Shown: piece after piece, positions 30,587 through 54,635 of the stretch
Position numbering within the stretch: position 1 is the first letter of the stretch
Layout: the number at the start of each line of letters is the position of its first letter
Assembly (NCBI GenBank): GCA_003155915.1
Contig: PMFA01000016.1
Span: forward strand, 38,745 to 95,735
Length of the DNA: 56,991 nt
Reading direction: 5' to 3'
DNA from: Acidimicrobiaceae bacterium
GTDB lineage: Bacteria > Actinomycetota > Acidimicrobiia > Acidimicrobiales > RAAP-2
Position numbers and translations under genes: made by a program
Notes under the pieces: generated by a model
What the model was told of the DNA's origin: nothing
Seen by the model: the letters and a program-made list of their open reading frames with translations, nothing else
Databases searched by the model: none

Positions 30587-30619
30587 CTAAAGAATGGGAC
30601 GTCGAAAAGTCGCTCCGCG

Positions 30620-30693
30620 TAGGGGCGGAGGGATTCGAACCCTCACTGGAGGCGGTTTAAGCGCCTTGCCTCTGCCAATTGGGCTACGCCCCC
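30620..30693 (-). tRNA. tRNA with UAA anticodon (tRNA-Leu), short variable loop
   Basis: A 74-nt cloverleaf can be drawn. Acceptor 7 bp GGGGGCG/CGCCCCU with a G1-U72 wobble and discriminator A73; U8 A9; D-arm with 3-bp stem GCC/GGC and an 11-nt loop; anticodon stem AGGCG/CGCCU closing the loop CUUAAAC, so the anticodon is UAA and reads the leucine codon UUA; variable region only 5 nt (CCAGU); T-arm GAGGG-UUCGAAU-CCCUC. The D-arm looks like that of leucine tRNAs, but leucine tRNAs in bacteria normally have a long variable arm. CCA is not encoded. The gene is read toward 29767-30573 and is single. Confidence 0.85.
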
Positions 30694-37708: not shown

Positions 37709-39082
37709 TCAAGAAGTCGCTTCGACGATGCGTATCTCGTCACGCAACTGACGCGCGCGTTCACGCAGCACACCCTCTAAATCGACACCGGCCCACTGCG
37801 CCATCTCCACGAGCGCCACGATGGCGTCGCCCCACGTGCTCTCCACGTCCGAGCTGGACTGCGCGTCTTCGGCCCCCACGTGCGCCAACGACAGTGAGTG
37901 CACCGCGTCGATCGCCCTCGTGCGTGATCGCTCGCCGTCACCGCGAAGATCGACCAGCGCGGCCTTGCGCAGCAGCTTCGTGTACAGGATCAGCGCCGGC
38001 AGTTGCCACACGATGCCGTCAGTCACGCTCTCGCGACCCTTCTCGTCGCGCTTCAGAATCTCCCAGCGCGCCGCGACGTCATCGGAACCGTTCACCCGCA
38101 CGTCACCGAAGACGTGCGGGTGGCGACCATTCAGCTTGTTGCGCACGGCGTCGGCGATGGTGGCGAGATTGAAGATCTCCTCCTCGTCGCCCAGTTCGGC
38201 GTGAAAGACGATCTGGAACAGCAGGTCGCCGAGTTCTTCTTCCACGTGGGTCGCCTCGGCACTGCCGTGACCGTCTTCGACGCGCACGAACGCTTCGAGC
38301 GCGTCGAGCGTCTCGTAGGCCTCCTCGAGCAAGTGCCGCGTCAGGGACGCGTGCGTCTGCTCCTGGTCCCACGGACACTCGGCGCGCAATCGACGCATGA
38401 ACGCGACGAGGTCGTCCATGGCCTCGCCCGCCGTGCGAAGTCCGTCGATCCACAGGGACGTCAGGTGGTCGACGTCACCGAAAGAGACCAGTTCGTCCGC
38501 GGACAGTTCGACGATGACCTCATCGCTCAGTCCGACGTGATGCAGCACCGTGACGACGGTGGATTTCGGAAGCCGATCGGCGACGCTCGCCAGTATCTCC
38601 AACGAGTAGGTCTGCAAGACCAACAAGGGACCGGGGCCGCGCAGCGCTTCGACGTTGGCGAGCGCGTCAACGACGCGCAGCCCACTCGCCATCGGGTCGC
38701 GCCCGAGCGCGGCGCACGCGACGTCGATGACCGAGACGGCGGGCTCGAGCACCGTCGTGACGTCCGAACAAGCCATTAGGAGTTCAACCGTTCGCTCGGC
38801 CACCACCGGCGAACCGGGCACGGCGTAGACCACTTCTCCATCCGGAGCGCTGCGCGCCAGCTCGATGAGGTCGGACACGATGGCTTCGTAGAGCGCGTCG
38901 AAAGAGTCCGCGCGCTCATAGAACTCGTCGTAGCTGGCGACGTCGGGGAACGCCGCCGCCGCCGGGTGAACGCGGGTCCTCAGGCGAACGACCGGCGCTT
39001 CACGCAAGAGGTCGAAGGTCCGGCGCGTTATGAGTTCGGCGTCACCGGGACCGAGTCCGACGACTCGAAGGACGGGCTTCAC
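37709..39082 (-). CDS. mazG: MazG NTP pyrophosphohydrolase fused to tetrapyrrole-methylase-like domain
   Basis: A 457-residue two-domain protein. Residues 1-215 form a tetrapyrrole-methylase-like fold: VVGLGPGDAELITRRTFDLL at the start and YAVPGSPVVAERTVELL, with the SAM-type loops, as in YabN-type fusions. Residues about 230-440 are MazG, a hydrolase of NTPs to NMP and PPi: MRRLRAECPWDQEQTHASLTRHLLEEAYETLDAL (metal-binding E-E-x-x-E/D) and VEEELGDLLFQIVFHAEL. The second MazG half is shorter and less conserved. GTG 39082 overlaps the upstream stop (GTGA). Housecleaning role is inferred from family; no methylase partner is seen. Confidence 0.9.
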   Translation of the reverse strand: MKPVLRVVGLGPGDAELITRRTFDLLREAPVVRLRTRVHPAAAAFPDVASYDEFYERADSFDALYEAIVSDLIELARSAPDGEVVYAVPGSPVVAERTVELLMACSDVTTVLEPAVSVIDVACAALGRDPMASGLRVVDALANVEALRGPGPLLVLQTYSLEILASVADRLPKSTVVTVLHHVGLSDEVIVELSADELVSFGDVDHLTSLWIDGLRTAGEAMDDLVAFMRRLRAECPWDQEQTHASLTRHLLEEAYETLDALEAFVRVEDGHGSAEATHVEEELGDLLFQIVFHAELGDEEEIFNLATIADAVRNKLNGRHPHVFGDVRVNGSDDVAARWEILKRDEKGRESVTDGIVWQLPALILYTKLLRKAALVDLRGDGERSRTRAIDAVHSLSLAHVGAEDAQSSSDVESTWGDAIVALVEMAQWAGVDLEGVLRERARQLRDEIRIVEATS

Positions 39083-47028: not shown

Positions 47029-47928
47029 GTGACAGATTTCTCCTACGACGAGTTCGCTTACTTTCACGAGAACATGAGCGAATGGAATATTGAGTCGGCT
47101 GTGCCGAACGTGCGACGCTTCTTCGTCGCCGTCGACGGACTTCGCCAACTCAGCGGACTGCGTTGGGGCGACGGCGAACCCGAGTTGACGCTGCTGCACG
47201 GCGGCGCGCAAAACGCCCACACCTACGACACGGTCGCGCTCGCGCTGTCACCGCACTCACTCCTCGCCCTCGACCTGCCCGGTCACGGCCACTCCGATCC
47301 TTCGATCTATCCGGCCTCGGCGATCGCGAGTCACGCCCTGGACGTAGAGCGCGCGCTCGAACAACTCATCACGCCGCCGCGCCCGCTCGTCGGTATGTCA
47401 CTCGGCGGCCTGACGGCGTTGATCGTCGCGCACGACCGCTCGGACCTCGTGAGCGCGTTGGTCCTGATCGACATCACGCCGGGCGTCAACGCCGAGAAGG
47501 CGCGACACATCACCGACTTCGTGAACGGCCCGACTACCTTCGACGACTTCGACACGCTGCTCGAGCGAACGAAGCAACACAACCCGACGCGCACCGAGTC
47601 GTCACTTCGTCGCGGCGTCTTGCACAACGCCGTACAGCGCGCCGACGGTTCGTGGGTGTGGCGACACCAACAACACGGAAAGTCCGAACTCGAGGCGCCC
47701 GACGTCGGTGACCTCTGGGAGACGCTCTCGGAGCTGTCGATGCCCGTCACGTTGATCCGCGCGATGGGACCGGGCTCGGTCGTCGACGATGAGGACGAGG
47801 CCGAGTTCCTGCGACGGCTACCGAACGCGACGATCGTGCACGTCCCCGACTCCGGTCATTCGGTCCAGGGCGACCAGCCACTGGTCTTGGCCGCACTACT
47901 CGAGCATCACGCATTGGAGGTGAACTAG
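47029..47928 (+). CDS. Alpha/beta-fold hydrolase
   Basis: A 299-residue alpha/beta hydrolase. Oxyanion region LLHGGAQNAHTYDTVA, strand LALDLPGHGHSD, nucleophile elbow VGMSLGGLTAL (Ser at G-M-S-L-G), and the final His in PDSGHSVQGDQP; an acidic residue lies in the VDDEDEAEFL region before it. No signal peptide. Substrate unknown; similar proteins serve as esterases or epoxide-hydrolase-like enzymes. The tRNA-Gln gene starts in the opposite direction at the next base after the stop. Start GTG follows TACGAT by 7 bases. Confidence 0.85.
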   Translation: MTDFSYDEFAYFHENMSEWNIESAVPNVRRFFVAVDGLRQLSGLRWGDGEPELTLLHGGAQNAHTYDTVALALSPHSLLALDLPGHGHSDPSIYPASAIASHALDVERALEQLITPPRPLVGMSLGGLTALIVAHDRSDLVSALVLIDITPGVNAEKARHITDFVNGPTTFDDFDTLLERTKQHNPTRTESSLRRGVLHNAVQRADGSWVWRHQQHGKSELEAPDVGDLWETLSELSMPVTLIRAMGPGSVVDDEDEAEFLRRLPNATIVHVPDSGHSVQGDQPLVLAALLEHHALEVN

Positions 47929-48001
47929 CTGGCGGGGGAGGGCTCGAACCTCCAACCTACGGATTCAAAGTCCGTCGTTCTGCCGATTGAACTACCCGCC
48001 A
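47929..48001 (-). tRNA. tRNA-Gln (anticodon UUG)
   Basis: A 73-nt cloverleaf: acceptor UGGCGGG/CCCGCCA with the U1-A72 pair and G73 typical of glutamine tRNAs, D-stem GUUC/GAAC, anticodon stem ACGGA/UCCGU with loop CUUUGAA giving UUG, variable region AGGUU and T-arm GGAGG/CCUCC around UUCGAGC. The CCA end is not encoded. It reads CAA. It abuts the hydrolase gene's end without a gap. Confidence 0.95.
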
Positions 48002-48029
48002 CCACTGATGCCCGGACAATCTTCGGAGA

Positions 48030-48038
48030 TTCTTAGCG
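48030..48038 (+). promoter_or_regulatory. Shared motif TTCTTAGCG upstream of the response regulator
   Basis: TTCTTAGCG, followed 12 bases later by ACGCTTAAC (48050-48058). A near-identical TTCTTAACG lies at 50194-50202 before the redox operon. Possible regulator-binding element; only two copies were noticed, so chance is possible. Confidence 0.25.
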
Positions 48039-48108
48039 AATGTCTGAAGACGCTTAACACCAACCAGCAACACTAGAGCCTGTACTACCAAACTGAGAAA
48101 GCCGTGTC

Positions 48109-48807
48109 GTGACCGCCCCATCAACAAACTCCTACATCGCGATCGTCGACGACGACGCGGCGATTCGTAGCGCCCTCGGACGCGCCCTGCGCATGGAGAA
48201 CTACGACGTCGAACTGTTCGAGGACGGCCTCAGCGCGCTCAAGGCGATCCAACTGCGCGCCCCGGACGCCATCGTGCTCGACTTGCAGCTTCCGGATATC
48301 GACGGACTCGAGATCTGTCGTCGCATTCGCCGTTCCGGGGACACGACGCCGATTCTCATGCTGACGGCGCGCGACGCCGTGAACGACCGCGTGGCCGGTC
48401 TCGACGTGGGCGCCGACGACTACCTCGTCAAGCCCTTTGACCTGGCCGAGCTGTTGGCGCGGATGCGCGCGCTGCTGCGCCGTCACAACCTCATCGAGGG
48501 CGATGGTGCGGTACTGCGCTTCGAGGACCTTTCACTGAATCCCCAGACCCGCGAAGTTCATCGAGGCCCGAGGTCGGTCGAACTCACGAAGATCGAGTTC
48601 GACCTGCTGGAGTTGTTTTTACATCACCCACGACAGGTGCTCACGCGCGATCAGATCCTCGACCTCGTCTGGGGCTACAACTTCGACTCCGGGACCAACT
48701 CCCTGGCGGTCTACATCGGTTATCTTCGCCGCAAGCTCGAAGAGGCGAACGAAGTGCGACTGATCCAGACGGTGCGCGGCGTGGGTTACGCGCTTCGCAC
48801 CACGTGA
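48109..48807 (+). CDS. OmpR-family response regulator
   Basis: A 232-residue two-component regulator. Receiver domain: acidic pocket VDDD at 13-16, phospho-acceptor Asp58 in AIVLDLQLPD, Thr in MLTARDAVNDRVAGLDVGADDYLVKPFDLAEL with the conserved Lys. C-terminal winged helix (about 130-230) with RSVELTKIEFDLLELFLHHPRQVLTRDQILDLVWGY and VYIGYLRRKLE. The type resembles MprA. It is followed by its sensor kinase with a GTGA overlap, and then by the redox operon, which it may control. A TTA codon (48619-48621) is present. GTG 48109 has a weak GAGAAAG site. Confidence 0.93.
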   Translation: MTAPSTNSYIAIVDDDAAIRSALGRALRMENYDVELFEDGLSALKAIQLRAPDAIVLDLQLPDIDGLEICRRIRRSGDTTPILMLTARDAVNDRVAGLDVGADDYLVKPFDLAELLARMRALLRRHNLIEGDGAVLRFEDLSLNPQTREVHRGPRSVELTKIEFDLLELFLHHPRQVLTRDQILDLVWGYNFDSGTNSLAVYIGYLRRKLEEANEVRLIQTVRGVGYALRTT

Positions 48808-50159
48808 CCTTTCGCTCGCGCGTCATCACCGCGACGGTCGCCGCCGCGGCCATCGCCGTCATCCTCGCCTGTTTCGCCTCCTTCTTGACGACGCGCAATT
48901 CGTTGATTCACTCCGTTGATGAGTCACTCCACGCCGAGGCGACGCCGAGCGGCGGCGGTCACGAAATAAGCTTCGTAGCGTTCCTCGTGCTCCCGACGGG
49001 CCAGACGGTACTGCTGCCGACGGGCCAGACGGTACCTTCGTCGAGAATTCACGTCGACGCGACGATCCTGGCCGTCGCCAGGGGCAAGAGCCAGCCGGTC
49101 TATCGCACCGTCGCCATCGGAGGGAACAACTACCGCGAGCTCATCGTGCCCATCGTGGCCAATTCAATCGGGACGTGCGCGGACGTCAACGCCTGTCTGA
49201 TCAAGACGACGTCGGCCGAACTGTTCATCACCAACATCGACGGTCAAGTAAATGAGCTGCGCAATCTCGTGCGGACGCTGACCTTCGTCGCGATCGGCGG
49301 ACTCTTGCTCGCCCTCGGGCTCGGTCTGTTCCTCGCGCGAACCGCGCTACGACCGCTCGAGGAGGTGACGAACGAAATCGAGACGGTCGCCGAGACCAAC
49401 GACCTCGGGTATCGCCTCACCGAAGGCGACGAAGACGAACTCGGTCGACTCCGGCGCGTATTCAACCGGCTGCTCTCGTCCGTGGAAAGCAGCCAGATCC
49501 TGCAGCGCCAGTTGGTCGTGGACGCCAGTCATGAATTGCGCACTCCCCTCACTTCGTTGCGCACCAACGCACAAGTCCTGAGTCGCGCCCGGGAGTTGAA
49601 CCCCGACGATCTTCGTCAACTGACCGACGACATGGTCACGCAGGTCGACGAACTCGCTTCGCTCGTGACTGACCTCGGCGAACTCTCACGTGGCGAACGA
49701 AGTGAAGGCACGATCGAGACCCTGCGGCTCGACGACTGCCTCGATGAATGCGTCGACACGGCTCGCACCTACGCGCGAATCAAGGAGATCACGATCGACG
49801 TCAACGTCGAGCGATCGAACGTTCTTGGACGGCGCGATCGTCTCGAACGCGCGATCTCGAATCTCCTCACCAACGCGATCAAGTTCACGCCGAACGGCGG
49901 TCGCATCGTGGTCGAGTCGCGCGACGGCACGTTTTCGGTGAGCGACAGTGGCTCCGGAATCACCGAGACCGACCGGCCCTTCATCTTCGACCGTTTCTGG
50001 CGCTCGGCGTCGGCGCGGGCCCTTCCCGGATCGGGACTGGGCTTATCGATCGTCGCGCAAGTCGTCGCCGAACTCCAGGGCACCGTGTCGGTGGACCGCG
50101 ACCCCCAGCTGGGCGGAGCTCGATTCACGATCACGTTACCGATTGATGACAATCCGTAG
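48804..50159 (+). CDS. Sensor histidine kinase, HAMP type
   Basis: A 451-residue membrane kinase. TM1 about 8-27, extracytoplasmic sensor 28-157 with one Cys pair (TCADVNACL), TM2 about 158-178, HAMP about 179-232 (RPLEEVTNEIETVAETNDLGYRL), HisKA with His243 in VDASHELRTPLTSLR, and an ATPase domain with the N box NLLTNAIKFTPNGG, VSDSGSGITE and GSGLGLSIV. The sensor region holds an 8-residue tandem duplication (LPTGQTVL-LPTGQTVP). TTA codons at 50043-50045 and 50136-50138. GTG overlaps the regulator's TGA. The signal is unknown; the neighbours point to redox state or flavin status. Confidence 0.93.
   Translation: MTFRSRVITATVAAAAIAVILACFASFLTTRNSLIHSVDESLHAEATPSGGGHEISFVAFLVLPTGQTVLLPTGQTVPSSRIHVDATILAVARGKSQPVYRTVAIGGNNYRELIVPIVANSIGTCADVNACLIKTTSAELFITNIDGQVNELRNLVRTLTFVAIGGLLLALGLGLFLARTALRPLEEVTNEIETVAETNDLGYRLTEGDEDELGRLRRVFNRLLSSVESSQILQRQLVVDASHELRTPLTSLRTNAQVLSRARELNPDDLRQLTDDMVTQVDELASLVTDLGELSRGERSEGTIETLRLDDCLDECVDTARTYARIKEITIDVNVERSNVLGRRDRLERAISNLLTNAIKFTPNGGRIVVESRDGTFSVSDSGSGITETDRPFIFDRFWRSASARALPGSGLGLSIVAQVVAELQGTVSVDRDPQLGGARFTITLPIDDNP
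48993..49035 (+). repeat. 24-bp tandem duplication within the sensor domain
   Basis: The 19-base unit CCGACGGGCCAGACGGTAC occurs at 48993-49011 and 49017-49035, spacing 24 bases, in frame. It doubles LPTGQTV in the extracytoplasmic part of the histidine kinase, suggesting a recent slippage event. Confidence 0.9.
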
Positions 50160-50193
50160 AACTGGCACAACATAGCGTCAAATTTGCGGCGCT

Positions 50194-50202
50194 TCTTAAC
50201 GT
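50194..50202 (+). promoter_or_regulatory. Shared motif TTCTTAACG upstream of the redox operon
   Basis: TTCTTAACG, about 50 bases before the start of the Thr-rich gene, resembles TTCTTAGCG before the response regulator. It may be the regulator's target. Confidence 0.25.
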
Positions 50203-50255
50203 TTCCCTTTCATCTTCTTACGCCCGGGTGGGAGAATTCATCACTAAGGAGATCG

Positions 50256-50657
50256 ATGACCCCCTCGAAGCGCACCCCCCAGCAGCGCGACCGACGCTTC
50301 GCGCGCGCACGACATTTCACCCAAGCGATCTTCCTCGGGTCGTGTGCGACGTCGGCGCTCTTCGTCGGCTACGCGGCCAACGCCGCCCACTCGGTGACGA
50401 CCGTCGCGGTGACGCCGCCCACGACGAGTGCGGCGACGACGACTTCGGAGGTAACGACCACGACGGTGCACCACGAGACGGCGACGACCACTGTTCCGAA
50501 GACGACGCCCACGACTACCGCGCGCTCGGTCCCAACGACGCCGACGACGCTGAAGAAGGTCACGCCGACGACGGCCTATACTCCCCCGACGACCGCGCCG
50601 GTCACGACGACGACGGTCTGTTCGTCGACGCCGTCCGGTCGGGTGATCTGTTACTAG
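50256..50657 (+). CDS. Small anchored Thr-rich protein, first gene of redox operon
   Basis: A 133-residue protein not recognised. A basic cytoplasmic start (about 1-22, RRFARARH) is followed by one hydrophobic segment (about 25-45, FLGSCATSALFVGYAANA), and the rest is a Thr/Pro/Ala tail (TTTSEVTTTTVHHETATTT, KKVTPTTAYTPP) ending in CSSTPSGRVICY with a Cys pair. The classic ApbE flavinylation motif (D-x-x-S-G-A-T) is not present; the nearest is PPTTSAATTTSE. AAGGAG before ATG 50256 fixes the start. It takes the place where an FMN-binding protein would be expected, four bases before apbE, so it may be an anchor or linker of the redox complex. Confidence 0.7.
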   Translation: MTPSKRTPQQRDRRFARARHFTQAIFLGSCATSALFVGYAANAAHSVTTVAVTPPTTSAATTTSEVTTTTVHHETATTTVPKTTPTTTARSVPTTPTTLKKVTPTTAYTPPTTAPVTTTTVCSSTPSGRVICY

Positions 50658-50661
50658 GACC

Positions 50662-51564
50662 ATGATGAAGTTCGAGATCTGGGGTCTGACGGGCACCCTC
50701 GCCACCGAGCACGACGGGCAGATGGAAGAGGCCACGAAACGGCTCTGGTACTGGTTGGACGCGGTCGACGCCTCGTGCAATCGCTTCCGCGACGACTCGG
50801 AACTCTCGCGACTCAACGATAGTCACGGGGCGACGATGGCGATCAGTCCGACGTTGGAGTTGGCGCTCGAGGCGGCGTTGCTGACCGCCGACGTCACCGG
50901 GGACATGGTCGATCCCACCGTCCTGCCCGCGTTGCTCGCCCTCGGCTACGACCGGGACTTCGACGAACTCGCCCACGGCGACTCGATTCGCGAGCTCGCG
51001 TCGGTGCCGTCGATGGGACCGTCGTCGATCCACCTCGACCTCGACGAGCACACCGTCACGCTTGACCCGCCGTGTCAACTCGATCTCGGCGCGAGCGCCA
51101 AGGCGCTCGTCGCGGACCTCATCGCCGATGACGTCGCGCCCTCCGGCGGCGTGGTCGTGGAACTCGGCGGCGATGTCGCCGTGCGCGGCGAAGGACCGGA
51201 GGGGCCCTGGGCGATCTCGGTGAGCGACGCGCTCGTCCTCCACGGTAACGAACCGCGCGTCGCGCTGGTCCACGGCGGGATCGCCACGTCCTCGACGGCG
51301 TCGCGCACGTGGCGAGTCGGTGAGCGCATCGTCAACCACATCGTCGATCCGCGTACGGGACGCTGTGCCCAGGGTCTCTACACGACCGCGACGGTCAGCG
51401 CGAGCGACTGCGTACTCGCGAACGCCTTCGCGACCGCGGCGTTGCTCTGGAACGAAGACGCCAGCTACCACATCGCCCAGGCCGGCTGGTCGGCGCGTCT
51501 CGTACGGCGCGACGGTTCGGTGGAGTTCGTCGGCGGCTGGCCCGAGGACGGGGCGGCTCGATGA
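50662..51564 (+). CDS. apbE: ApbE-like FAD:protein FMN transferase
   Basis: Transfers FMN from FAD to Ser/Thr of target proteins. 300 residues. Family marks: CNRFRDDSELSRLN near the front, MVDPTVLPALLALGYDRDF, PPCQLDLGASAKALVADL (the D-L-G-x-x-A-K motif), GVVVELGGDVAVRG, HGGIATSSTASRTW and VNHIVDPRTGRCAQGLYTTATVSAS (H-I-V-D-P-R-T-G). No signal peptide is visible, so it is probably cytosolic, which would imply target modification before export or on the cytosolic face. ATG 50662 (or 50665) starts four bases after the Thr-rich gene. Coupled to the heme membrane gene by ATGA. Confidence 0.92.
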   Translation: MMKFEIWGLTGTLATEHDGQMEEATKRLWYWLDAVDASCNRFRDDSELSRLNDSHGATMAISPTLELALEAALLTADVTGDMVDPTVLPALLALGYDRDFDELAHGDSIRELASVPSMGPSSIHLDLDEHTVTLDPPCQLDLGASAKALVADLIADDVAPSGGVVVELGGDVAVRGEGPEGPWAISVSDALVLHGNEPRVALVHGGIATSSTASRTWRVGERIVNHIVDPRTGRCAQGLYTTATVSASDCVLANAFATAALLWNEDASYHIAQAGWSARLVRRDGSVEFVGGWPEDGAAR

Positions 51565-52202
51565 TCGCCCTCACCTCGCCCTACCTCTGGTACGTCACGC
51601 GCGCGACCGGACTCGTGACGCTGGTTCTCTTCACGATCGTGGTCTGTCTCGGCACATTCGTTGCCAATCGGGTGGGCGGGACCAACGTCGGTCGTTTCGA
51701 ACTCAACGAGCTGCACCGATCGGTGTCGATGACGGCGATGGCCTTTCTGGTCCTGCACATCCTCTCGACGATCCTTGATAGCTACGTACCCACCGGTTGG
51801 CTGTCGGCCGTCATCCCGATGACCTCGTCCTACAAACGCTTCGACGTCGCCCTCGGCGCCGTGGCGTTCGATCTGATGCTCGCGGTGTGGGCGTCGAGCC
51901 TGATGAAGGCGCGCATCGCCAACGGATCGTGGCGATTCATCCACTGGCTCTCCTGGTTGGCGTTCGTGGCCGCGACCTCGCACGCTTTCCTCATCGGCAC
52001 CGACGCTCGCTCGGGCATCGGTCTCGCGGTCGTCATCAGCTGTGCGCTCGCCGTCGTCGCCACCGCTCTGTGGCGCTACCTGAAGCGGCCCACGCGCGCG
52101 TTGGGCCGAACGGCACTGTCGCCCCTCGCGCGGCACGGGGCGCCCCGCGACACGAAGAACGCCCCCGGCGAAACCCACCGGCGAAATCGAGTGCGGCGAT
52201 GA
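51561..52202 (+). CDS. Ferric-reductase-like transmembrane heme protein
   Basis: A 213-residue membrane protein with about five or six helices and the ferric reductase-like transmembrane domain. Two pairs of His at 13-14-residue spacing, H52 and H66 (ELHRSVSM, VLHILST) and H128 and H141 (FIHWLSW, TSHAFLIG), fit binding of two b-type hemes. The C-terminal 40 residues are basic and cytosolic. It would carry electrons between a cytosolic donor and an outer acceptor. It lacks the FAD/NAD domain of full ferric reductases; the next gene may supply it. Overlaps: ATGA with apbE and ATGA with the next gene. Confidence 0.87.
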   Translation: MIALTSPYLWYVTRATGLVTLVLFTIVVCLGTFVANRVGGTNVGRFELNELHRSVSMTAMAFLVLHILSTILDSYVPTGWLSAVIPMTSSYKRFDVALGAVAFDLMLAVWASSLMKARIANGSWRFIHWLSWLAFVAATSHAFLIGTDARSGIGLAVVISCALAVVATALWRYLKRPTRALGRTALSPLARHGAPRDTKNAPGETHRRNRVRR

Positions 52203-53473
52203 TGAGGGACGTCACACTGCCTCGTGTCATGTGGGGCGCCTCGGGTCGGCCGCTGACCCTTCGCGAACACGAGATGACGTTCGGCGCCGCGAAGGCGGGT
52301 GCCGCACTCGCTGGCGAACTCGAAGCCTCCGGACTCATGGGCCGCGGCGGCGCCAATTTCACGACCTCGAAGAAGGTGGAGCTCTTGCGCGCGCAGCGCG
52401 GCCATCACAAGGTCCTGGTCGTGAACGCGATGGAGGGCGAACCGGTGGGCCACAAGGACCGGACCCTCCTTTCGACAAACCCTCATCTCGCGCTCGACGG
52501 CGCCCAGTACCTGGCCGCCTTGATCGGAGCACGCCGCGTCGCGGTGTGCGTGTCGCGCAAGGACTCCGCGATCGTGCACCACGTGCAACGAGCCCTGCAC
52601 GAGCGCGAGCGTCGCGGCGGCGGTCCCGAGTTCATCTTGCACACTCCGCCGTGGCGCTACGTTGCGGGCGAGGAGTCGGCGCTCGTGCACTGGCTGAACG
52701 ACAACGAGACGATGCCGCAGTACCGACCACAGCGCCCGCACGTGCTGCACGTCGGTCGCTCCCCCGCGTTGGTCGTGAACGCCGAAACGTGCGCGCACGT
52801 CGGACTGATCAATCGATTCGGCGCCCACTGGTTTCGCGAACTCGGAACACCCTCGAGCCCCGGCAGCGCGCTGGTGTCGGTGTCGGGCGCCGTGCGTCGA
52901 CCGACGGTGCTCGAGGTCGCACTCGGGACGCCGCTGCGCTCGATTCTGCGCGAGGCCGGCGCCGACCCCGATCCGCTCGCGCTACTCACCGGCGGCTACG
53001 GCGGTGCGTGGCTCGACGGCGAACACCTCGACGCCGCGTACTCCAACGAATCTCTTCAACCCCTCGGCGCCACCGTCGGCGCCGGCATACTCGTCGTGGT
53101 GCCCAGGGGAGCCTGCGGGCTCGCCGAGACCCAGCGCATCGTGAAGTGGATGGCGAATGAGAGTTCGCGTCAGTGCGGTCCCTGCGCGTTCGGTCTGCCC
53201 GCGCTCGCCGAGGACCTGGGAGCCCTGCTGCACGGTGCACGCGATCCCCACGGTGTCTTGGTCCGGCTGAAGGAACGATGTTCGGTCATCCAAGGACGCG
53301 GGGCCTGTCGCCACCCCGACGGCGTCGTGCGACTCGTGGCTTCGGCTCTCACGGTCTTCGCCCGCCACATCGAGGACCACGTGAGCGGATCACCCTGTGA
53401 GGCGTTGACGACCCCGCGACGTTGGGTGGCCGTGCCGGCGCTGGAGCACGAGTCTGAGTTGGTGTGGGAATGA
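52199..53473 (+). CDS. NuoF-like NADH-binding/SLBB/FeS protein
   Basis: A 424-residue protein related to the NuoF/51-kDa subunit of NADH dehydrogenase. Nucleotide and FMN region: EASGLMGRGGANFTTSKK and VVNAMEGEPVGHKDRTLL; middle VAGEESALVHWLNDNE; SLBB-type section VSVSGAVRRPTVLEVALGTPL; C-terminal FeS region ESSRQCGPCAFGLPALAEDL and GRGACRHPDG. In NuoF the cluster motif is C-x2-C-x2-C...C; here the first Cys is Ser. The expected role is to take electrons from NADH and pass them to the ferredoxin or heme protein. ATG 52199 overlaps the heme gene stop; the frame open upstream to 51797 is only a shadow. Confidence 0.87.
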   Translation: MMRDVTLPRVMWGASGRPLTLREHEMTFGAAKAGAALAGELEASGLMGRGGANFTTSKKVELLRAQRGHHKVLVVNAMEGEPVGHKDRTLLSTNPHLALDGAQYLAALIGARRVAVCVSRKDSAIVHHVQRALHERERRGGGPEFILHTPPWRYVAGEESALVHWLNDNETMPQYRPQRPHVLHVGRSPALVVNAETCAHVGLINRFGAHWFRELGTPSSPGSALVSVSGAVRRPTVLEVALGTPLRSILREAGADPDPLALLTGGYGGAWLDGEHLDAAYSNESLQPLGATVGAGILVVVPRGACGLAETQRIVKWMANESSRQCGPCAFGLPALAEDLGALLHGARDPHGVLVRLKERCSVIQGRGACRHPDGVVRLVASALTVFARHIEDHVSGSPCEALTTPRRWVAVPALEHESELVWE

Positions 53474-53718
53474 CACGCCGCTCCGACCACTTCGTGTTGC
53501 GCGTCGATCCGATCCTCTGTGACGGATTCGGGCACTGTCACGAACTCGCGCCGGAACTGGTGCAGGTCGACGAGTGGGGGTATCCGATCATCCACGATCA
53601 GGCCACGTCGACGAGTGAGCTCGCACTACTGAAATCGGCGCGCCTGGCCGTGCGGGGTTGCCCCCGTCAGGCACTGCGAATCGAGCGCGTGACCAGCCAC
53701 TCCGAGACACCGCGCTGA
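53470..53718 (+). CDS. Small 3Fe-4S ferredoxin
   Basis: An 82-residue ferredoxin with exactly three Cys: C17 and C23 in LCDGFGHCHE and C64 in VRGCPRQAL, the C-x5-C...C-P pattern of single [3Fe-4S] (or loosely [4Fe-4S]) actinobacterial ferredoxins that feed P450s and other oxidoreductases. It ends the redox operon and would be an electron carrier for the NuoF-like protein or other flavoproteins. ATG 53470 overlaps the upstream TGA (ATGA); a GTG at 53464 is possible but is not supported by a ribosome site. Confidence 0.9.
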   Translation: MTRRSDHFVLRVDPILCDGFGHCHELAPELVQVDEWGYPIIHDQATSTSELALLKSARLAVRGCPRQALRIERVTSHSETPR

Positions 53719-53755
53719 GCGATGCCTTTTGGTCGCGGAGGCAAAAGCGACTAAG

Positions 53756-53761
53756 TTAGTT
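53756..53761 (+). promoter_or_regulatory. Putative -10 box, leaderless start of bS22
   Basis: TTAGTT on the plus strand 6 bases before ATG 53768; TAAGTT at 53752-53757 is an alternative. Confidence 0.35.
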
Positions 53762-53767
53762 CGAGCC

Positions 53768-53869
53768 ATGGGATCACTAATCAAGAAGCGCCGTAAGCGC
53801 ATGCGTAAAAAGAAGCACAAGAAGATGCTGAAGCGAACCCGCTTTCAGCGTCGCGCCGCCGGTAAATAG
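53768..53869 (+). CDS. Ribosomal protein bS22 (AURKAIP1/COX24 type), 33 residues
   Basis: A 33-residue, highly basic protein: begins MGSLIKKRRKRMRKKKHKK and ends with RTRFQRRAAGK. This matches the actinobacterial AURKAIP1/COX24-domain mini-protein found in mycobacterial small ribosomal subunits as bS22. It binds rRNA near the subunit interface in those species. Too short for usual gene finders. It has its own predicted promoter and converges on ispE with 13 bases between. Confidence 0.9.
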   Translation: MGSLIKKRRKRMRKKKHKKMLKRTRFQRRAAGK

Positions 53870-53882
53870 GCTTCTCCGACCC

Positions 53883-54635
53883 CTACTGGGGCGTCGTCGT
53901 GAGCGTGGATAACTGGAGAGGGCCCTCGGGGCCGGTCATGTCCCAACGGCTCTCCGTCGCGCCCAGGTGACCCTCCACGAACATCGACGAGCCTGATCCG
54001 GCCAGTTGCACCGCGGAGCCGATCTCGGCGCGCAGCCACGCTAGGGTCGACGCCAGTCTCGGTTCGACCCGGCCGGCCGGCTCTTCCAGGTGATTGGTCC
54101 CCTTCGCCGTCCAGCCGTCGGCCCGCATCTCGTCGTAGGCCCGGTAGCACGCGGCAGTCGAGACGCCGAAGTCCGGCACGATGAGCGTGAGGTTTCGTTC
54201 CTCGAAGGCCAAAGTGCTCAGTCGTTCTCCCACCCCTTCGACGAGGGCGCGTCCGCCGAGCTGGCAGAACGGCACGTCGCCGCCGAGGGTGACCGCGAGT
54301 TCATTGGACACTCCCCCGGCCCAGCGAAGGATGGCCGCCGCGTCGGCGCTCCCGCCGCCGAGGCCGCCGCCGACCGGGATGGACTTCTCCACGCGCACCC
54401 CGGCGCGACGTCCCACGAGCTGCAGGGCCCGCACGATCAGGTTGTTCTCGTCGGACACGATCTCGGTCGCGAACGGATTGAGGATCTCCAGGTGGTCCGT
54501 GGTGTCGTCGACGAAGAGGACGTCGTGGAGCGCAATGGTCGTCATCTCGCTACGCAGTTCGTGCAAGCCGTCGTCGCGCACACCAGTGATCTCTAAGTTC
54601 CACGTGAGCTTGGCGTGGGCCAGCAGTTCGATCAC
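53883..54635 (-). CDS. ispE: 4-diphosphocytidyl-2-C-methyl-D-erythritol kinase
   Basis: GHMP kinase of the non-mevalonate isoprenoid pathway; phosphorylates CDP-ME at the 2-position. 250 residues, somewhat short for the family. Sites: AHAKLTWNLEITGVRDDGLHELRSEM (AKVN-like substrate motif, here AKLT, with H-x-L), the ATP loop PVGGGLGGGSADAAA (about 86-100) and DVPFCQLGGRALVEGVGERL; the C-terminal AGSGSSMFV is the third GHMP motif. GTG 54635 overlaps the ksgA stop (GTGA). Thr replaces the Asn usual in AKVN. Confidence 0.93.
   Translation of the reverse strand: MIELLAHAKLTWNLEITGVRDDGLHELRSEMTTIALHDVLFVDDTTDHLEILNPFATEIVSDENNLIVRALQLVGRRAGVRVEKSIPVGGGLGGGSADAAAILRWAGGVSNELAVTLGGDVPFCQLGGRALVEGVGERLSTLAFEERNLTLIVPDFGVSTAACYRAYDEMRADGWTAKGTNHLEEPAGRVEPRLASTLAWLRAEIGSAVQLAGSGSSMFVEGHLGATESRWDMTGPEGPLQLSTLTTTPQ

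Follow-up and report, generated by a model that had tools for sequence, protein, structure and literature searches.

The stretch of DNA analysed here (hereafter the window; 56,991 nucleotides, positions 38,745 to 95,735 of contig PMFA01000016.1) comes from an Acidimicrobiaceae bacterium whose assembly, GCA_003155915.1, comprises 2.52 Mb in 29 contigs and is 95.65% complete. It holds, directly downstream of a two-component system, a five-gene operon for an anchored Thr-rich protein (referred to as the tether), an ApbE-type flavin adenine dinucleotide (FAD):protein flavin mononucleotide (FMN) transferase, a membrane cytochrome, a NuoF-like protein and a ferredoxin. This work concerns the operon as a putative transmembrane electron-transfer unit and, in particular, the C-terminal tail of the tether as a candidate substrate of ApbE. 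The features of the locus are the following:

48109..48807, + strand: OmpR-type response regulator (Pfam Response_reg 115.1 bits, Trans_reg_C 93.8 bits)
48804..50159, + strand: HAMP sensor histidine kinase (Pfam HAMP, HisKA and HATPase_c above cut-off)
50246..50251, + strand: AAGGAG before the ATG at 50256, likely serving the tether gene as ribosome-binding site (from reading the sequence)
50256..50657, + strand: tether protein with a basic N-terminus, one hydrophobic segment, a Thr-rich linker and a conserved tail (no Pfam family above cut-off)
50619..50654, + strand: tether tail CSSTPSGRVICY, the cysteine loop found genus-wide (C-x4-SG-x(3,4)-C, C-terminal in 24/24 intact operon tethers of the genus)
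50662..51564, + strand: ApbE-type FAD:protein FMN transferase, catalytic-triad Asp replaced by Asn (PF02424 136.2 bits, cut-off 25.6; alignment to solved ApbEs)
51561..52202, + strand: ferric-reductase/MsrQ-like membrane cytochrome with four conserved His (PF01794 34.1 bits, cut-off 28; His in 33/33)
52199..53473, + strand: NuoF-like NADH/FMN/iron-sulfur (Fe-S) protein with altered cluster cysteines (PF01512, Complex1_51K, 104 bits, cut-off 31.2; PF10589, NADH_4Fe-4S, 51.6 bits, cut-off 23.5)
53470..53718, + strand: small single-cluster ferredoxin (Fer4_15 33.4 bits, cut-off 22.4)

The five genes and the regulatory pair had been described in an earlier sequence-only reading of the window, and all of them lie at the positions given there, with their families backed by Pfam. 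The same is true of the spacing: the apbE, cytochrome, NuoF-like and ferredoxin genes are joined by successive ATGA overlaps, and 4 bases separate the stop of the tether gene from the start of apbE. The reading frames of the response regulator and the kinase also overlap (48804-48807). A scan of 47900-54000 for sigma-70-type promoters gave none, against 0.5 expected.

A conserved redox core of known kind

Conservation of the operon was examined in 33 loci of the same order, chosen by NuoF similarity. ApbE, cytochrome, NuoF-like protein and ferredoxin are encoded in that order and on one strand in 29 of them, so the arrangement is not due to chance, and the outcome named earlier as refuting the proposal, that homologous loci would always lack it, did not appear. 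The exceptions are L042, without a local ApbE, L043 and L048, with ApbE placed otherwise, and L049, which is ended by a contig edge. In two of the 29 loci (L040 and L045) the tether gene follows apbE and precedes the cytochrome gene. The response regulator and the kinase both have homologues in 16/33, a count for which there is no background rate for comparison. Among 148 genomes of the order, 27 hold an operon-type NuoF match (E < 1e-60, a chosen cut, the next best match being at 1e-47), and every one of the 27 also has an ApbE match. A single-protein scan gave two named relatives of the operon, in Acidimicrobiaceae bacterium bog_564 (bog) and Actinomycetes bacterium JA1.bin20.

The two His pairs highlighted previously in the cytochrome (H52/H66 and H128/H141) are invariant in all 33 aligned cytochromes, that of the window included. 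The NuoF-like protein aligns to complex I NuoF with E 1.4e-39 and scores below the NCBIfam NuoF equivalog cut-off (184.3 vs 558.65 bits). Its four-cysteine set for the N3 cluster is incomplete, the first Cys being a Ser (ESSRQCGPC), while Cys370 aligns with the fourth canonical N3 cysteine and the C-terminal Cys400 is invariant in a nine-sequence alignment; these residues suggest that the Fe-S site may have been rewired throughout this family of operons. The ferredoxin belongs with the single-cluster ferredoxins that resemble P450 partners, as indicated by its Fer4_15 match and by the fact that two of the three related solved structures carry a P450 in their record names.

The PF01794 gene that overlaps apbE is characteristic of MsrQ-like flavinylation systems. 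A total of 1,797 such clusters have been counted, 31 of them with a PF10589 NuoF-like gene, and they are broadly conserved in Actinobacteria, typically with an FMN_bind gene (PMC8238504). The redox core of the operon is known in kind, because the combination of ApbE, MsrQ-like cytochrome and NuoF-like gene has already been published in that source. The window shares with those clusters apbE, the PF01794 cytochrome and the PF10589 NuoF-like gene, and differs from them in having an anchored tail protein in place of FMN_bind and a dedicated ferredoxin.

For this core we infer a path in which NADH would reduce the NuoF-like protein (FMN, Fe-S), and electrons would then travel via the ferredoxin and the cytochrome's two hemes to the outer side of the membrane. 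The route from NADH over Fe-S and heme to the outside, as proposed by the sequence-only reading, fits both the conserved parts and the published cluster class (PMC8238504), although its direction is a presumption. Flow in the opposite sense, with an outer donor being oxidised and electrons passing inward to the ferredoxin and NAD+, is allowed by the reversibility in principle stated by Meheust 2021 (PMC8238504), and the sequence holds nothing that fixes the direction. Nevertheless, the NuoF-like protein is similar to NADH-oxidising subunits, and clusters containing NuoF have been interpreted in the literature as having NAD(P)H as the donor (PMC8238504), so that we consider reversed flow highly improbable.

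The cytochromes of L040, L042, L044-L047, L051, L052 and L054 carry an additional hydrophobic segment followed by a Ser/Thr-linked C-terminal domain, which is absent from the window's genus. The model of the L040 cytochrome (L040:6633-7787) shows eight well-scored strands at residues 264-373. This domain was considered as a flavin holder and rejected: the PDB search gave no match at E <= 0.001 (the best one being NADPH oxidase SpNOX, E 1.3e-3, with STEAP2 third), and the window protein lacks the domain.

Tether tails and their ApbEs

Tethers were gathered from their position, the presence of a hydrophobic segment and the composition of the linker, without using the tail sequence. The sample consisted of 70 loci (74 fetched minus 4 duplicates) plus the window and yielded 68 ApbEs, of which two are Asp-type and lack a tether and 66 are operon-type. 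A tether is present at 63 of these 66 loci, mostly directly upstream of apbE. The remaining three are L048, where none was found, L058, where a tail-like open reading frame adjoins an assembly gap, and L078 (genome G234), whose operon lacks an intact tether while a solitary paralogue stands at another site; the tether called at L129, which ends in SATGTVA, is doubtful. Basic residues prevail N-terminal to the hydrophobic segment in 62/63 tethers, which places the tail outside. Neither the window tether nor five other tested members match any Pfam family above cut-off.

Three classes of tail can be distinguished: (i) TTGAS-like tails, exemplified by HATTGASVVVP; (ii) tails that close, or nearly close, with SGGS or SGGT; and (iii) the cysteine loop of the window's genus. 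Of the 39 tethers from outside that genus, 27 carry [ST]G[AG][ST] in their last eight residues (10 as [ST]GA[ST] and 17 as [ST]GG[ST]), compared with 1.02 for windows taken from the same linkers. Linker shuffles give 0.88 motif tails, and none of 4000 reaches 27. When only one tether per genus and ApbE type is kept, the motif is found in 23/31 against 0.64 expected. The explanation of the tail as mere low-complexity sequence is ruled out by these linker-window and shuffle controls.

These tails resemble the published ApbE motif, D-x-x-[ST]-G-A-[ST], in which a change of Ala to Val cuts flavinylation to about half; seven residues are enough for an ApbE tag, which works best at termini and in which the Asp is nearly dispensable (PMC12052999). 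The available portions of that paper contain no report on the effect of Ala to Gly, the change seen in class (ii).

The ApbEs themselves differ at the catalytic triad, which is Asp285-Ser241-His257 in Vibrio cholerae numbering (PMC12052999). ApbE type and tail type change together. Among the [ST]GA[ST] tails, 9/10 are accompanied by an ApbE with Glu at the place of the triad Asp (that of L133 has Asn), while Asn-type ApbEs accompany all 17 SGG-type tails and all 24 cysteine-loop tails. Seen from the enzyme, the 13 Glu-type loci have an [ST]GA[ST] tail in nine cases and an SGG-type tail in none, and the 26 Asn-type loci without the cysteine loop have one and 17, respectively. The Glu-type ApbEs form two groups, joined only at a support of 0.61, and that of L068 is poorly aligned at the triad place. 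Three short-type ApbEs in the set have Asp there. According to its sequence, the Asn-type ApbE is a predicted FMN transferase.

Similar components are also found outside the order. G279 and G584, both of one genus, encode a tether (tail SRGS), cytochrome and NuoF-like protein together and an Asn-type ApbE with ferredoxin at a separate site, and neither has an FMN_bind match. Judged by the same components, G256, G330 and G447 have tether-like genes too. The tested relatives G385, G314, G334 and G291 gave no ApbE match and no cytochrome adjoining their best NuoF hit, with no genome-wide search made for cytochrome or tether.

Some variants of the arrangement deserve mention. In L053, L057, L061-L063, L065 and L066, two consecutive anchored proteins precede apbE, and in L057 and L061-L063 a TGAS motif is likewise seen in the first of them, close to an end that is acidic or rich in Gly. 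In L128 (G038:C99:66500-77500), a tether with another two-cysteine tail, ACGSKPC, lies beside a Glu-type ApbE, and no cytochrome hit was obtained in the locus. Large genomes of family f84 contain cytochrome-NuoF pairs near which neither tether nor ApbE was found.

The search for a conventional flavin carrier

The sequence-only reading had placed an acceptor on the outer side, flavin or metal, without seeing what would carry the flavin, and had suggested looking for co-occurring FMN-binding proteins. No Pfam match to FMN_bind was obtained among the window proteins, and no open reading frame in L036-L068 resembles the genome's own FMN_bind protein, while the same search recovered the known one in L135 as a positive control. 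An FMN_bind domain concealed within the operon or close to it was rejected on these Pfam and similarity results; the operon lacks the gene that is typical, although not absolutely so, of MsrQ-like systems (PMC8238504). The best candidate for the carrier is the conserved end of the Thr-rich tether.

The genome does contain a single FMN_bind match, on C28, flanked by a full-length ferric reductase and a separate Asp-type ApbE (G000:C28:198113-200921; L035:8114-10922, - strand); the FMN_bind protein has a Thr-rich linker. That locus has in common with the operon a ferric-reductase domain, an anchored protein with a Thr-rich linker and an ApbE, and it differs in its true FMN_bind domain, its full-length ferric reductase and the Asp-type of its ApbE.

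It could be proposed, from this protein and from the FMN_bind gene typical of the published class (PMC8238504), that the operon is an ordinary MsrQ-like system whose ApbE modifies an FMN_bind protein encoded at another locus, the tether being a spacer or an assembly factor. We regard this as improbable. The FMN_bind protein on C28 adjoins an Asp-type ApbE of its own, and FMN_bind (PF04205) has no match in 15 of the 27 operon genomes. Eight genomes (G074, G069, G137, G061, G021, G081, G125 and G050) combine this absence with a single ApbE, that of the operon, and one of them, G074, is a member of the window's genus. Each of the 12 operon genomes with FMN_bind has a further ApbE of the shorter type (its match split around profile positions 75-125), which shares one contig with FMN_bind in 10/12 (the exceptions being G029 and G124). 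Moreover, an ordinary system would leave the conservation of the tail without explanation.

The other refuting outcome foreseen, an apbE serving an Nqr or Rnf subunit encoded elsewhere, did not appear either: NqrB/RnfD is matched in only one of the 27 operon genomes (G029). DUF2271 has no match in the 16 genomes tested.

The cysteine loop and the proposed mechanism

Of the 27 genomes in the window's genus, 25 hold the operon ApbE; G205 lacks a match, and that of G215 is weak (E 1.1e-4). The tether query matches in exactly those 25 (in 24 of them at the ApbE locus) and in neither of the two others. All 24 intact operon tethers carry the C-terminal loop C-x4-SG-x(3,4)-C, with C, P, S, G and C unchanged throughout the 21 loops of twelve residues. 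The loop is retained across the genus, while the stretch that follows the helix differs in length (54 to 113 residues). Two tethers of the genus are solitary: G234 has a paralogue with the tail CTTSPSGTTTCH beside a RecA-like open reading frame (L144:3292-3939), and G212 has, in addition to its operon copy, a cysteine-loop tether away from apbE (L143:3356-3727). The tails of six other genera of the family are RTGGS, SGGTSR, SSGGS, VTGQT, VSGGS and YSSGS. As these sister genera have SGG-like tails (the strict motif in 4/6), the cysteine loop looks derived within the window's genus.

Taking tail conservation, tail and ApbE matching and joint loss together, we infer that the operon is a transmembrane electron-transfer unit whose outer flavin carrier is the tail of an ApbE-served membrane tether, a reading that we favour with somewhat better than even confidence. 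In the related families, the operon ApbE would attach FMN to the tail Ser/Thr of [ST]GA[ST] or SGG[ST]. The hemes would hand electrons at the outer face to the tail, and from there to an outer acceptor, with the flavin swinging on a flexible tether instead of being seated within an FMN_bind fold. For the window's genus, ApbE would probably still serve the loop, at another Ser/Thr, or the cysteines may join the redox process.

Several observations weigh against this interpretation. Twelve of the 39 tails from outside the genus lack the strict motif (YSSGS, RSRGS, SGSTMP, SSSSF, GSSGF, VSAVS, SSGDS, VTGQT, SSNAS, ACGSKPC, ATGTVA and SSHGS). Within the genus, SGx[ST] occurs in 11/24 tails, the usual acceptor Ser/Thr being missing in 13/24; five loops, that of the window included, have no Ser/Thr after SG, and the window tail, PSGRVICY, reads SGRV where [ST]GA[ST] would be expected. 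The ApbE of the window has Asn aligned to Asp285 of the triad, with His226 aligned to His257 and an ATSS segment at the expected place of Ser241. By inspection it also lacks a signal peptide while the tail is expected outside, so FMN attachment would have to come before export, which would be the simplest way out. Finally, the search for other substrates covered FMN_bind, NqrB/RnfD and DUF2271; the PF04205 search overlooked an FMN_bind-like open reading frame in L141 (G447), so divergent members can escape; and the genomes are incomplete and mutually related.

The main rival for the window itself is a disulfide role of the loop: the tail of the genus would no longer be flavinylated, the disulfide between the cysteines would act as redox carrier on the outer side or as a clip for the structure, with ApbE a remnant or active on another protein. 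The presence of both cysteines in 24/24 tails, against 11/24 for the usual acceptor, speaks for this alternative, as do the Asn of the triad and the other two-cysteine tail of L128. It is harder to reconcile with the retention of the operon ApbE in nearly all genomes of the genus and the loss of the tether in exactly the two others, with the retained His257 position, and with the sister genera, in which an ApbE of the same Asn type accompanies SGG[ST]-like tails. We therefore judge it unlikely, although clearly less so than an ordinary MsrQ-like system. Under the tether interpretation, the tail is a candidate for a new kind of ApbE substrate, well supported by sequence in the relatives and less sure for the window.

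The known ApbE substrates are FMN_bind, DUF2271 and DUF3570 (PMC8238504), NqrB/RnfD, and Flavodoxin_4 clusters (PMC11334425). They are extracytosolic and modified at an [ST]GA[ST]-type motif, as is proposed for the tether tails; unlike the tethers, which have no recognised domain and a motif closing a low-complexity chain, they are folded domains. Engineered flavin-tags also show that ApbE needs no more than a short terminal motif (PMC12052999), but they are artificial, whereas the tether tail would be a tag of natural origin, in which Gly often replaces Ala and which is served by an ApbE whose triad Asp is changed to Asn or Glu. No tail-type substrate is reported among the PMC literature matches listed, which leave subscription papers and preprints largely outside their scope. 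Meheust 2021 counted 4% of genomes (670) with ApbE and no known substrate (PMC8238504), and a substrate tail on a tether would, if true, fill part of that gap. Whether the data reflect a widespread actinobacterial system of natural C-terminal flavin tags on low-complexity tethers, with dedicated Glu- and Asn-type ApbEs and, in the window's genus, a cysteine-flanked loop possibly combining flavin and disulfide carrier, seems to us evenly balanced. New labelling pairs could come, in addition, from the Glu- and Asn-type ApbEs with their respective tails.

Three further features were observed in the window. A tRNA-Gln gene (ttg; 47928-48001, - strand) lies just before the response regulator gene, and a tRNA-Leu gene (taa) is found at 30619-30693 on the - strand. 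Directly after the operon, a tiny open reading frame (53768-53869, + strand) encodes 33 residues of highly basic character, which we presume to resemble ribosomal protein bS22.

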